This document shows positions 17,584-23,762 of a stretch of DNA of 46,483 nucleotides, in pieces. The DNA is from Flavobacteriales bacterium (lineage in GTDB: Bacteria; Bacteroidota; Bacteroidia; Flavobacteriales_D; Parvicellaceae). The stretch spans positions 1 through 46,483 of the forward strand of contig JAQWSL010000051.1 of NCBI GenBank assembly GCA_029243225.1. The letters are read 5' to 3'. Each line of letters begins with the position of its first letter. Within the stretch, counting starts at the first letter, position 1. The position numbers and the translations under genes were made by a program. Below the pieces are notes generated by a model. It had not been told where the DNA came from. It ran no database searches and saw nothing but the letters and a program-made list of their open reading frames with translations.

Positions 17584-19059
17584 TTAATAAGCTCTTGCAA
17601 AAACAACTCTTTTTTTAGAAGGTTTACCAGAGTAAATACATTTACCGACTTCATCTTCAGCATCTAATAGAACACACCTAATAGTAGCTTTAGTTTTTTC
17701 TTTTATTTTGAGTTCTGTTTCTTTAGTTCCATCCCAATGTGCTAGAACAAAACCACCTTTCTCATCCAATATTTTTATTAATTCATCGATTGAATCTGCC
17801 TTACGAGTATTTTCATTTGTATAAAGTTTGGCTTTATCAAATAAATTTTCTTGTATTTCCTGAAGAAGAGATTCTATTTTAACTTCTAACCCTAGCCTAT
17901 CTACAGATGTTTTATCTAGGGTGTCTCTTCGTGCTAATTCAACTGTTCCATTCTCTAAATCTCTTGGACCTATTGCAACTCTTAAAGGAACACCCTTCAT
18001 TTCATATTCTGCAAATTTCCACCCTGGTTTTCTTTTGTCATCATCATCAAACTTCACTCTAATGTTTCTCTGCTTAAGTTTTGTAGAAATTTCATTGGCA
18101 ACCTTCGATATTTCAATTAATTGCTCTTCGCCTTTATAAATAGGTACAATGGCTACATGAATTGGAGCTAGTTTTGGAGGAAGCACTAAACCTAAATCGT
18201 CTGAATGAGTCATAATTAAAGCACCCATTAATCGAGTAGATACTCCCCAAGATGTTGCCCAAACATGTTGAGATTTACCATTAGCATCAGCAAAAGTAAC
18301 ATCAAAAGCTTTAGCAAAGTTTTGACCCAAGAAGTGAGAAGTTCCTGCTTGTAGTGCTTTTCCATCTTGCATTAAAGATTCAATACAATAAGTTTCAAGC
18401 GCACCAGCAAATCTTTCATTTTCGGTTTTTAAACCCTTTAAAACTGGCATTGCCATAAATTCTTCTGCAAACTGAGCATAAATGCCTAACATTTTTTCTG
18501 TTTCATCAATAGCTTCTAATTTTGTAGCGTGAGCTGTATGTCCTTCTTGCCATAAAAACTCAGATGTTCTTAAAAAAAGCCTTGTTCTCATTTCCCAACG
18601 AACAACATTTGCCCATTGATTAATTAATATAGGTAAGTCTCTGTAGGATTGTATCCAATTTTTATATGAATTCCATATTATTGTTTCTGAAGTAGGACGA
18701 ACAATAAGCTCTTCTTCTAATTTAGCATCCGGATCAACAACTACACCTTTACCATCTTCAGAATTTTTTAATCTATAATGAGTAACAACTGCACACTCTT
18801 TGGCAAAACCTTCTACATGATCAGCTTCTTTACTTAAATATGATTTTGGTATAAAAAGAGGAAAGTAAGCATTTTGATGCCCTGTTTCTTTAAACATTCG
18901 ATCTAATTCAGCTTTCATGTTCTCCCAAATTGCAAAACCATAAGGTTTAATAATCATACATCCTCTAACATCAGAGTGCTCTGCTAAATCTGCTTTACTA
19001 ACCAGTTCATTGTACCAGCTAGAGAAATCTTCTTCTCTTTTTTTCAACCCTTTTCCCAT
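17584..19059 (-). CDS. proS: Proline--tRNA ligase (short, archaeal/eukaryotic-like type)
   Basis: 491 residues. It charges tRNA-Pro with proline. It is the short ProS class without the inserted editing domain between motifs 2 and 3. Motif 1 region '[22 protein letters not shown]', motif 2 '[34 protein letters not shown]' and motif 3 region '[24 protein letters not shown]' are visible. The anticodon-binding domain follows from ~295 ('[14 protein letters not shown]') and a C-terminal domain ends in Tyr ('VVFARAY'), as in this class. A TAATTTTG box lies upstream. Confidence 0.96.
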
Positions 19060-19189: not shown

Positions 19190-20356
19190 ATGAAAACAAT
19201 TAATCACTTTAGCATCTTATTTTTCATTTTTATTTTAGCTTCTTGCTCTATGTCAAAAGATATGGCATATGAAGATGACATATACAGTTCTGATAACGGA
19301 ATCATTTTCTCAGACAACATTGAAAACTCAAATGAAGACGAAGATTATTACGATTCCCAATATGGTGATTTGTATGAAGATGATCAATACGAATTTAGTG
19401 GAGACAACAACACTAACTATGTAACAAACAATAATTATTACTACCCAACAAACTCAAGTAGATATAGTAGATACAGCAGATACAATAGATGTAATAGGTA
19501 TCAGCTAGGCTATTCTTACAGCAATAATTACAACTTTAATCATTGCAACTCATGCTGCGGGAACAATTGGTACTCTAATAACTATTATGGTTACGGATAC
19601 AATAACTATTACACCTATAATTATTATGGTTATTACGGTTATGGTTCCCCATACAACAATTACTATGTTAATAATTATTACGGTTATGGAAATGGTTACG
19701 GCTATGGAAATGGCTACGGTTATGGAAATGGCTACGGTTACGGAAATGGCTACGGTTACGGATATGGAAATGGCTACGGTTATGGAAACAACTATAACTG
19801 GACCAATAATGACAACAACAACAATTCAAGTGGTTCTTATTATGGTCACAATGGGTCAATAAGCGCTAATTCTTCTAATAGCTCTTCAAACAACAACACT
19901 AATGAAGACGATTATGCAGTTGTTATCTCAACTGTTAAAGGGAAGCCAATTGTCAACAATGGAACTTCAATAGGGTCTAGCAATAGTATTAATAATAATC
20001 CTTATACATTATCTAATCTAACTAATAAAGAACCTATTTCTTCACCTGTGTCAAATGACAAACCAAATAAACCAAGTAATAATACTCTGAAAAACATTCC
20101 TAATTCTAAGCCTTCAAGCACAATATCATCTTGGGATAAAAAACCTAGTAACAGCTACAAGCCAAGTAACTCTAGTAACAGTTACAAGCCAAGTAACTCT
20201 AGTAACAGCTACAAGCCAAGTAACTCTAGTAACAGCTACAAGCCAAGTAACTCTAGCAATAGTTATAGATCAAGCGGAAGCAAATCTAACAGCTATAAGC
20301 CATCGTCTAAACCTTCAACAAAGCCATCGTCCGGTAACAAATCAAGAAGAAGATGA
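19190..20356 (+). CDS. Low-complexity Gly/Tyr/Asn/Ser repeat lipoprotein
   Basis: 388 residues. The N-terminus is a lipoprotein signal (MKTINHFSILFFIFILASC, lipoprotein cysteine C19). After an acidic stretch (25-75, rich in Asp/Glu/Tyr) come an Arg-Tyr segment (R-Y-S-R-Y-S-R-Y), a small cysteine cluster (H-C-N-S-C-C-G), a Tyr/Gly/Asn-rich region with five G-N-G-Y-G-Y units (about 167-198), an Asn/Ser region, and four exact-length K-P-S-N-S-S-N-S-Y units (about 324-359), ending in a basic K-S-R-R-R. No folded domain is apparent; it should be surface- or periplasm-exposed and disordered. It overlaps the FadL-like gene by 4 bases (ATGA), so the two are translationally coupled and probably act together. 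Function unknown. Confidence 0.85.
   Translation: MKTINHFSILFFIFILASCSMSKDMAYEDDIYSSDNGIIFSDNIENSNEDEDYYDSQYGDLYEDDQYEFSGDNNTNYVTNNNYYYPTNSSRYSRYSRYNRCNRYQLGYSYSNNYNFNHCNSCCGNNWYSNNYYGYGYNNYYTYNYYGYYGYGSPYNNYYVNNYYGYGNGYGYGNGYGYGNGYGYGNGYGYGYGNGYGYGNNYNWTNNDNNNNSSGSYYGHNGSISANSSNSSSNNNTNEDDYAVVISTVKGKPIVNNGTSIGSSNSINNNPYTLSNLTNKEPISSPVSNDKPNKPSNNTLKNIPNSKPSSTISSWDKKPSNSYKPSNSSNSYKPSNSSNSYKPSNSSNSYKPSNSSNSYRSSGSKSNSYKPSSKPSTKPSSGNKSRRR
19688..19783 (+). repeat. 18-bp tandem repeat (5 units) coding G-N-G-Y-G-Y
   Basis: Five near-identical 18-base units of the type GGAAATGGCTACGGTTAT, with a 6-base GGATAT insert between units 4 and 5. Units differ only at synonymous third positions, so the reading frame and peptide are preserved. 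Repeat number is likely to vary between strains. Confidence 0.9.
20159..20266 (+). repeat. 27-bp tandem repeat (4 units) coding K-P-S-N-S-S-N-S-Y
   Basis: Four contiguous 27-base units; units 1-3 are almost identical and unit 4 has several synonymous changes. They are in frame within the lipoprotein gene. Confidence 0.92.
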
Positions 20357-21883: not shown

Positions 21884-22669
21884 TTATTTCAAAAGTCTAG
21901 TAATTTTTTTATTTATTTTATCAAATTGTTGTGTAGCCAATTCAGCATCTACTAAAATTCTTCCACTGTGCTCATCTACAATTATTTTTTTTCTAGCTGC
22001 AATATCTATTTGCATTTGAGGCGGTATTTTGATAAATGAACCACCTGATGCTCCTCTTTCAACAGGAACAACTGCTAAACCATTCTTTGAAGCACCTCTA
22101 ATTCTCTTGTAAGCTCTTAAATACCTATCATCAACAGACTTTCCAGCTTTTTCAGATTCTTGAATTAATATTCCCTCTTCCTTTTCAGTTTCAGAAATAA
22201 TTTCTTTAAGTTCTTCTTTCTTCAGCTCCAAAGCACTCTTTTTCTGATTAAAAAGTTCTTTTGCTTCATCTAAAAGCTCTTGTTTACTTTCTATTTTGAA
22301 TTTATATTCTTTAATTCTTTTTTCAGCTAATTGCATTTCAAGATCTTGGTACTCCACTTCCTTGTTTAATGAATCAAACTCTCTGTTATTTCTAACTTTG
22401 TTTTGTTGATCTGCATATTTTTTAATTGCATCTTTAGCTTCAGCAATTGTATTTTTTTTATCGGAGATAGATTTTTCAAAATCTTCTAAATCAGATTGAA
22501 TTTTATCTACTCTTCCTGAAAGACCAGTTAGCTCATCTTCAAGTCCTTCTACTTCTAAAGGAAGTTCACCTCTAACTTCTCTCATTTTATCGATTTTAGA
22601 ATCAATAACCTGAAGGTTATAAAGTGCTCTTAATGTTTCTTCTGGTGATACTTTTTTTGTTTTTGCCAT
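21884..22669 (-). CDS. COG1579-type coiled-coil protein with degenerate zinc ribbon
   Basis: 261 residues. Residues ~15-175 form a long coiled coil (heptads rich in K/E/L). The C-terminal domain keeps the family frame 'VPVERGASGGSFIKIPPQMQIDI' and 'KKIIVDEHSGRILVD', but the positions that are zinc-binding cysteines in other members (C-x2-C twice) are S208, S211, D232 and S235; the protein contains no cysteine at all. I chose the ATG at 22669 (MAKTKKVSPEETL) over one 33 bases upstream, which would overlap the Nif3 gene. It follows the Nif3-like gene by one base. The role is unknown; the fold may persist without metal. Confidence 0.85.
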   Translation of the reverse strand: MAKTKKVSPEETLRALYNLQVIDSKIDKMREVRGELPLEVEGLEDELTGLSGRVDKIQSDLEDFEKSISDKKNTIAEAKDAIKKYADQQNKVRNNREFDSLNKEVEYQDLEMQLAEKRIKEYKFKIESKQELLDEAKELFNQKKSALELKKEELKEIISETEKEEGILIQESEKAGKSVDDRYLRAYKRIRGASKNGLAVVPVERGASGGSFIKIPPQMQIDIAARKKIIVDEHSGRILVDAELATQQFDKINKKITRLLK

Positions 22670-22670
22670 T

Positions 22671-23762
22671 TTATAAATAATTAATCGGATTTGTATTGAC
22701 ACCCGTTAAACGGATTGCAAAATTAGAAAAATTTTCTTTTAAACCATCAGATATTAAGTCAATTGTATATTGTTCGCTCTCAAAATGCCCAATATCTGCA
22801 ATTATTATCTGATTTTCTGCATCAAAAAACTCATGATATTTAAAATCTGCTGTAATAAAAATATCTGCTTTTAAATTTTTAGCACTGGAAAGCAAAAAAC
22901 TGCCAGATCCTCCACACAAGGCGACTTTCTTAATTTTATTTTTACAAATTGTGGTGTGTCTTATAACCTTAACATTCATCTTTTCTTTTAATTGGGCGAG
23001 GAATTCATTAGCATCTATTTCATTTTCTAATTCACCAATGAGTCCAGAACCAATATTAGAAGTGTTTTCTAAAGAATAAATATCGTATGCAACCTCTTCA
23101 TATGGATGATGGTCTCTCAACTGCTGCAATGTTGAGTTTAAAAGGTGTTTTGAAAGAATAACTTCAATTTTAACTTCATCTTCATGATGAGTCTCCCCTA
23201 CCTTCCCCACAAATGGGTTAGATTTCTCACCAGGTTTAAAGGTTCCTTTCCCTATAACATTAAAGCTACAATTTGAATAGTCACTTATGTGGCCAGCACC
23301 AGAACTAAATAAAACTTCTCTAATTTTTTCTGCACTTGCCATAGGGCTAAAAACAGTTAGCTTCACAAGTAAATCTTGCTTAGGTTTCAAAATTTGTCTA
23401 TTAACTAAACTTAGTTTATCAGCAATTTTTCCATTTACACCGTTTAAAACATTATCTAGATTAGTATGAATCGCAAAAATATTTATGTCATTTTTAATTG
23501 CCTTTATTACTGTTCTCTCAATATAATTAGAACCATTTATTTTTTTAAGTCCAGAAAAAATTATTGGATGGTGAGCTACAATTAAATTACATTTTAAATC
23601 TATAGCTTCCTGTACAACTTCTTCTATACAATCTAGACATACTAGAACACCTTCGACTTCTTTAGAAGATTGTCCAACTATCAATCCAGAATTATCATAT
23701 GCTTCTTGAAATTGAGGTGGAGCTATGGAGTCTAAATATTTTATTACATCTTTAACCTTCAT
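22671..23762 (-). CDS. Nif3-like dinuclear metal protein (YqfO type)
   Basis: 363 residues, the long form with a PII-like domain inserted in the middle (about 130-235). Metal-ligand motifs of the family are visible: 'LIVAHHPIIFSGLKK' near residue 60, 'IFAIHTNLDNV' near 100, and 'IADIGHFESEQYT' near 330. 'ALCGGSGSFL' and 'ADIFITADFKYHEF' are also typical. Often annotated as GTP cyclohydrolase I type 2, but the activity is not firmly established. Its start is 28 bases from the start of divergent lpxK, so the two promoters must overlap the opposite coding regions. Confidence 0.92.
   Translation of the reverse strand: MKVKDVIKYLDSIAPPQFQEAYDNSGLIVGQSSKEVEGVLVCLDCIEEVVQEAIDLKCNLIVAHHPIIFSGLKKINGSNYIERTVIKAIKNDINIFAIHTNLDNVLNGVNGKIADKLSLVNRQILKPKQDLLVKLTVFSPMASAEKIREVLFSSGAGHISDYSNCSFNVIGKGTFKPGEKSNPFVGKVGETHHEDEVKIEVILSKHLLNSTLQQLRDHHPYEEVAYDIYSLENTSNIGSGLIGELENEIDANEFLAQLKEKMNVKVIRHTTICKNKIKKVALCGGSGSFLLSSAKNLKADIFITADFKYHEFFDAENQIIIADIGHFESEQYTIDLISDGLKENFSNFAIRLTGVNTNPINYL

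Follow-up and report, generated by a model that had tools for sequence, protein, structure and literature searches.

A low-complexity lipoprotein gene conserved in position and layout beside a FadL-like barrel gene in Bacteroidota

In the stretch of DNA analyzed here (46,483 nucleotides of a Flavobacteriales contig, hereafter the window), a gene for a low-complexity lipoprotein overlaps the start of a gene for a FadL-like outer-membrane barrel (Table 1). This raises the question of whether the lipoprotein is a partner of the channel, and what such a partner might do. The window lipoprotein has no match in Pfam or NCBIfam at E-values up to 0.1. Among 10 of its relatives, no Pfam match and one sub-threshold NCBIfam match were found, and none reaches a curated family. 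The gene gives a single match in its own genome, which is 86.5% complete.

The initial annotation described three types of short repeats, a cysteine cluster, and a basic tail in this protein. The repeats are real as units of 9, 18, and 27 nt that do not occur in shuffled sequences, and one 6-residue word is found five times, compared with a maximum of two in 1000 residue shuffles. The basic tail is equally clear, with a net charge of −17 over residues 20–90 versus +16 over residues 301–388 and a sequence ending in RRR. The cysteine cluster (residues 101, 119, 122, and 123) is present in the window protein but is not kept in relatives, which have a mean of 1.4 Cys after residue 60. It is thus no family feature and was rejected as a functional element.

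Table 1. Coordinates of the lipoprotein gene, its parts, and the neighboring genes in the window
Feature	Position	Strand	Basis
proS, divergent neighbor, within a larger conserved block	17584..19059	-	
Low-complexity lipoprotein gene, 388 aa	19190..20356	+	ORF list
Signal peptide and lipobox LASC, Cys at residue 19	19190..19246	+	Sequence
Y-E-D-D-I-Y, the D-D-[VIL]-Y element near the mature N-terminus	19268..19285	+	Motif versus shuffles in the family
R-Y-S repeats, 9-nt unit, 5.0 copies, 77% matches	19457..19501	+	
G-N-G-Y-G-Y array, 18-nt unit, 5.8 copies, 82%; aromatic, Gly/Asn-rich middle zone	19679..19788	+	
K-P-S-N-S-S-N-S-Y array, 27-nt unit, 4.1 copies, 97% matches	20145..20256	+	
Basic C-terminal end S-S-G-N-K-S-R-R-R	20327..20353	+	
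ATGA, stop/start codon overlap	20353..20356	+	ATGA also in L032 and L031
FadL/OmpP1-like outer-membrane barrel, 493 aa	20353..21834	+	PF03349
C4 zinc-ribbon protein, convergent neighbor, far side of the pair	21884..22702	-	

The overlap of 4 bases between the two genes, which had also been pointed out, is exact. Both same-genus relatives that were fetched have the ATGA: L032 shows the same 4-base overlap, and in L031 the ATGA is present although the deposited lipoprotein ORF changes frame within the repeat array. In this sister genome (L031:3659-5026) the shift falls where the KPSNSSNSY array ends, and it may be an assembly error or real slippage in the repeat. Elsewhere the two genes are separated by a median of about 32 bases, with a gap of 100 bases or less in 167 of 172 family loci; these gaps are approximate, being taken from match or ORF starts. 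Gaps are thus usually a few tens of bases, and the overlap in the window is one local form of a closely spaced pair. Gene overlap as a general rule was rejected by this gap distribution.

Relatives of the barrel were retrieved from 195 of 299 genomes of the order (single-sequence query), 227 of 247 genomes of the class (profile A1, made of 20 window-type barrels), and 217 of 296 genomes of a phylum sample, mostly with one match per genome. Within the order, 127 of the 195 genomes with a barrel match were examined, and a low-complexity ORF lies directly upstream of the barrel gene in 126 of the 127 loci (107/108, followed by 19/19 further loci). In other orders of the class, such a partner is present in 66 of 69 assessable loci (65/68 and the second copy of one genome), a count that includes four ORFs re-set by hand reading in place of the script call; 70 class loci were fetched, and L145 and L205 were not assessable. 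Outside the class, 13 of 20 loci have the partner by the strict rule described below, and all 20 upstream ORFs look lipoprotein-like by eye, as an unscored reading. Loci from the class and the phylum were chosen for the highest scores or by hand for spread, and are therefore non-random. FadL copies without a partner were found in G135, G436, and G494 (copy 1 of two). In G315 the upstream ORF, which is rich in Pro and Lys, fails the strict rule, yet a lipobox and DDAY are present. Conservation of the pair holds in the class and is looser beyond it. Synteny with OmpP1/FadL in other Flavobacteriales had been suggested as a check, and a low-complexity, mostly lipobox-bearing protein is indeed conserved there and beyond the order of the window; the pairing is far more general than had been guessed and spans Bacteroidota.

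The strict rule requires an ORF on the same strand, of at least 150 aa, with a combined N+G+Y+S+W+R+T fraction of at least 0.45, an entropy below 3.7, and a gap of −60 to +175. Its limits were chosen after the sequences had been inspected. The composition measure averages 0.63 in the positives versus 0.34 in 37 other ORFs of the window (highest 0.47), and the mean entropy is 3.21 versus 3.73. The composition limit would be insufficient alone because 17 of 20 barrels also reach 0.45. Barrels are not low in entropy, and none of the 37 ORFs or the 20 barrels passes both limits. When the limits are placed at the control extremes (0.52 and 3.54), 160 of the 172 positives still pass.

The family assembled in this way comprises 205 ORFs, with a lipobox-like Cys detected by script in 167. 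Of the other 38, many run off the fetched stretch, and nine carry an ordinary signal peptide. Most class members share a layout in which an acidic N-terminal zone bearing the D-D-[VIL]-Y element is followed by an aromatic, Gly- and Asn-rich middle and a Ser/Arg tail, commonly with a terminal Arg. The pattern [DE]x?[VILAETG]Y stands no more than 34 residues from the Cys in 147 of the 155 members from the order and class (shuffles: mean 40.9, maximum 55) and in 6 of 12 members outside the class. In the nine members with an ordinary signal peptide, D-D-[VIML]-Y stands at the mature N-terminus or close to it (by eye), indicating that the element survives without a lipid anchor. Across the 167 members, acidic residues account for 20% of the first decile and 17% of the second, aromatic residues are most frequent in deciles 3 to 5 (30, 33, and 25%), and basic residues and Ser climb toward the C-terminus, reaching 17 and 35% of the last decile. 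The centers of mass follow the order acidic, aromatic, basic in 116 of 167 members, compared with a mean of 32.2 and a maximum of 46 in shuffles. By group, this zoning holds in 88 of 113 members from the order of the window, 27 of 42 from other orders of the class, and 1 of 12 outside the class. Arg or Lys is found among the last three residues in 169 of 172 members, where 67.8 would be expected from tail composition. On the charge-hydropathy plot, 165 of 167 members fall on the disordered side of the line versus none of 20 barrels.

Sequence itself is kept less well. The pattern Y-[SA]-x-R-[IL]-R-R-F occurs in 47 of 172 members (shuffles 4.7) and GYYD in 120 of 172 (shuffles 52.7). In some relatives the aromatic zone starts with these two motifs, and the R-Y-S repeat of the window protein occupies the corresponding region (by position, by eye). 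KPS units, counted by pattern, number four in the window protein, seven in the sister genome L031, and zero in L032, whose barrels are 94% (L031) and 67% (L032) identical to that of the window. Class members mostly keep the zoned composition, and sequence and repeats turn over. The suggestion that repeat-region composition be compared rather than sequence proved apt in that composition and layout are kept better across relatives.

The pair sits in a larger conserved block. The proS gene adjoins it in 98 of 100 order loci and lies on the opposite strand in all 19 loci checked, so that adjacency within the order carries less weight than the count suggests. If the gene order were simply inherited with an old proS block, no functional link between the two genes would be needed. 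The strict rule, however, finds the partner in 15 of the 22 loci without detectable proS in the fetched stretch; among these 15, L267 lies at a contig end and carries little weight, and the absence of proS here means no tblastn match within about 2.3 kb, a span partly filled by the lipoprotein gene. Genomes without the barrel point the same way. Twenty such genomes were listed in the class sample, and 19 were checked for proS (G321, 0.5 Mb, was left out). ProS was matched in 10 and not in 9, and the lipoprotein was sought only beside proS; in 9 of the 10 genomes with proS, no such lipoprotein lies beside it, and thus neither gene of the pair is found there. Based on these loci, we regard simple inertia of gene order as very improbable.

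In G511, one of the barrel-less genomes, proS adjoins a relative of the zinc-ribbon gene of the window, indicating that both genes of the pair are missing between them. This genome has two copies of proS (L286 and L292), each with the zinc-ribbon gene beside it (by eye) and no pair between. Four near-complete genomes of genus g16 in family f8 (G008, G038, G043, and G048) gave no barrel match. In their loci (L282, L285, L287, and L289), no such lipoprotein lies beside proS, and a gene for a sulfatase-like membrane protein is found there instead (by eye). The counter-example is G528 (L283), in which a lipoprotein of the same layout lies beside proS and no barrel gene precedes the zinc-ribbon gene. 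This orphan lipoprotein has no Arg at its end.

These genomes also bear on a possible role in assembly, in which the lipoprotein would act as a periplasmic factor that chaperones its own FadL-like barrel to BAM and then leaves. Such a factor would fit a gene that is encoded first, near or overlapping the barrel gene, and that is missing beside proS in nearly all the FadL-less genomes with proS. The lipoprotein without a barrel beside it in G528 speaks against this role, as do the aromatic and Arg zones, which to our knowledge are atypical of known barrel chaperones; we consider an assembly factor improbable.

The side of the membrane on which the chain lies can be approached through its export signal. 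The surface export signal of Bacteroidota lipoproteins (LES) is described as two acidic residues in the vicinity of the +1 Cys (PMC5080379), and the criterion given in the BAM paper is at least two acidic residues in the first six (PMC12578637). At positions +2 to +7, none of the 167 members has at least two acidic residues; 119 have none and 48 have one, as does the window protein (CSMSKDM). By an export rule defined in few species, the lipoprotein is thus more likely to face the periplasm, which weakens the surface adhesin or gel put forward in the initial annotation. The substrate-binding brush for the porin, also envisaged there, would lie on the periplasmic side if this rule holds. A housekeeping function would likewise suit a widespread pair, with a single barrel match in most genomes, better than adhesion would.

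A surface-exposed, disordered lipoprotein that surrounds the channel with an adhesive or hydrated extracellular brush and captures substrate is for these reasons unlikely, though it deserves the most weight among the alternatives to the accessory role proposed below. Its composition, rich in Gly, Tyr, Asn, and Ser, would suit a brush, and surface lipoproteins are frequent partners of Bacteroidota barrels, e.g., in BamG-BamH and SusC-SusD (PMC12611786; PMC12578637). Besides the missing export signal, nine members that by eye are not lipoproteins by sequence, and a distribution unlike that of a niche adhesin, argue against it.

The same missing surface signal, together with the polar distribution of charge and the basic C-terminal end, would be compatible with an outer-membrane tether, in which the lipid sits in the outer membrane, the Arg-ended tail binds peptidoglycan, and the FadL gene is merely a co-transcribed neighbor. 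Against it, the lipoprotein is missing beside proS in 9 of the 10 barrel-less genomes with proS, and some lineages have no lipid anchor, making it an improbable reading. Lpp-type proteins are linked covalently to peptidoglycan via a terminal Lys. Such a linkage is unlikely here because 119 of 167 members end in Arg and 10 in Lys, and the window protein has no C-terminal Lys.

The barrel encoded in the window passes PF03349 with an E-value of 3.9e-10 and 39.2 bits (cut-off 29.7). In a six-frame search of its genome it scored as two PF03349 pieces, each below the cut-off, and no other gene of that genome matches PF03349. An AlphaFold2 model built from three sequences, in which a 14-stranded barrel with a lateral opening was sought, has a mean pLDDT of 27.7. 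Against PDB sequences, profile A1 matched TbuX (1.9e-10), FadL, CymD, and TodX; the window barrel alone matched CymD and TbuX, and FadL was found by the profile only. We know of no comparable lipoprotein partner for the transporters FadL of E. coli, TbuX, and TodX, which belong to the same PF03349 family as the window barrel.

BamG was considered because it is a universal, essential FadL-type barrel and the window barrel is the sole PF03349 gene of its genome. This identity was rejected, since profile A1 gave no BamG match at E-values up to 1. The window barrel and three single relatives likewise matched no BamG chain, though 9n2d is among the PDB sequences searched. Also included in that set were 9hiv, 9hj3, and 9hjm, which we take to be Bacteroides and Porphyromonas complexes. 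As a control, the protein at L223, from the same genome as the tested relative L193, matches 9n2d_B ('Bam G') at 7.2e-157. At one locus in each of two family f63 genomes (L223:1375-2625 and L222:1372-2598), a FadL-type gene lies directly beside a type III pantothenate kinase-like gene (by eye), a neighbor that may help to locate BamG elsewhere; the L222 protein resembles that of L223. Membership in PorV/PorQ of the type IX secretion system was rejected as well, with a PorVQ2 score of 32.7 bits versus an NCBIfam cut-off of 325. PorV_fam was matched by 11 of 20 barrel relatives (best 3.6e-12), and the barrel family may be distantly related to PorV. With no BamG match and a score far below the PorVQ2 cut-off, the window barrel represents a further, widespread FadL-like barrel of Bacteroidota.

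Two side observations concern other genes of this genome. In its BamA (L213:43-2601), the stretch richest in Gly, Asn, and Tyr lies at about residues 575 to 617, with 42% of these residues over 40 positions versus a mean of 21%. A Tyr-rich loop in Bacteroidota BamA is reported in one study (PMC12578637), and the stretch is perhaps this loop; a tie in composition to that loop was considered until BamG had been excluded. In the window itself, a 555 aa frame at positions 41316-42167 matches the Omp85 family (PF01103, 42.2 bits), one of four such matches in the genome and not BamA; it is possibly TamA/TamL-like.

A candidate for the same barrel has appeared in earlier studies. The 'putative hemin receptor' PG1626 / PGN_0477 of P. 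gingivalis (554 aa) is listed as Bacteroidetes-specific, present in all studied Bacteroidales and Flavobacteriales and one Chlorobium, and missing in C. hutchinsonii (PMC1887533). It has also been named FADL outer membrane receptor (PMC10470040), was detected in outer-membrane vesicles (PMC4335976), and appeared as a minor band that co-purified with PorK/PorN and was not cross-linked (PMC4980022). Judging from length, annotation, and distribution, PG1626 is a plausible orthologue of the window barrel.

A FadL-family barrel with a lipoprotein partner is likewise found in BamG-BamH of Bacteroidota (PDB 9N2D; PMC12611786; PMC12578637), and in B. thetaiotaomicron the paralogues BamG2 and BamH2 form a putative operon (PMC12578637). 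The pair described here differs in that the window-type barrel has no BamG match and in that BamH, as described there, is a folded surface lipoprotein, whereas the window partner is of low complexity and has no surface signal. We found no description of the lipoprotein or of the pair in the open-access literature. Barrel-lipoprotein pairs are already known; what appears to be new is a partner of low complexity whose position and layout are conserved. Domain libraries miss this nearly constant gene partner, probably because of its low complexity.

The partnership of lipoprotein and barrel is well supported; how it works we infer. With moderate confidence, we propose that the protein is an accessory lipoprotein of a widespread Bacteroidota FadL-like channel, with a docked N-terminus and a disordered, charge-graded tail, and that the two genes form one unit. 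In most lineages, the mature N-terminus would be held in the membrane by its lipid and would use the D-D-[VIL]-Y element to dock on the barrel. We infer docking from the analogy with BamH on BamG and because members that lack a lipobox still keep the N-terminal element. A precedent is the lipoprotein N-terminus bound by a FadL-type barrel in the BAM reports (PMC12611786; PMC12578637). The remainder of the lipoprotein would be a flexible chain, probably periplasmic since the surface-export signal is missing. Its basic tail might bind an anionic partner, with peptidoglycan or lipid headgroups as a guess. The aromatic zone might hold or hand over hydrophobic cargo, itself a guess, or keep several channels together.

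In FUS-type sticker-and-spacer proteins, a Tyr-rich zone is followed by an Arg-rich tail. The bacterial lipoprotein shares this zone order by composition only, and no homology is claimed. A bolder version of the accessory role would treat the family as sticker-and-spacer proteins that gather channels into condensate-like patches or relay hydrophobic cargo across the periplasm, which we think improbable. In this version the zone order would be fixed, with the acidic N-terminus docking on the FadL-like barrel, followed by the Tyr/Trp zone and the Arg tail. If true, it would mean that selection acts on composition and zone order in a widely conserved envelope machine. For the accessory lipoprotein as proposed above, the partnership, if it holds, would open a way to the substrate and role of the channel and offer a tractable example of how selection acts on composition and layout in a disordered bacterial protein.
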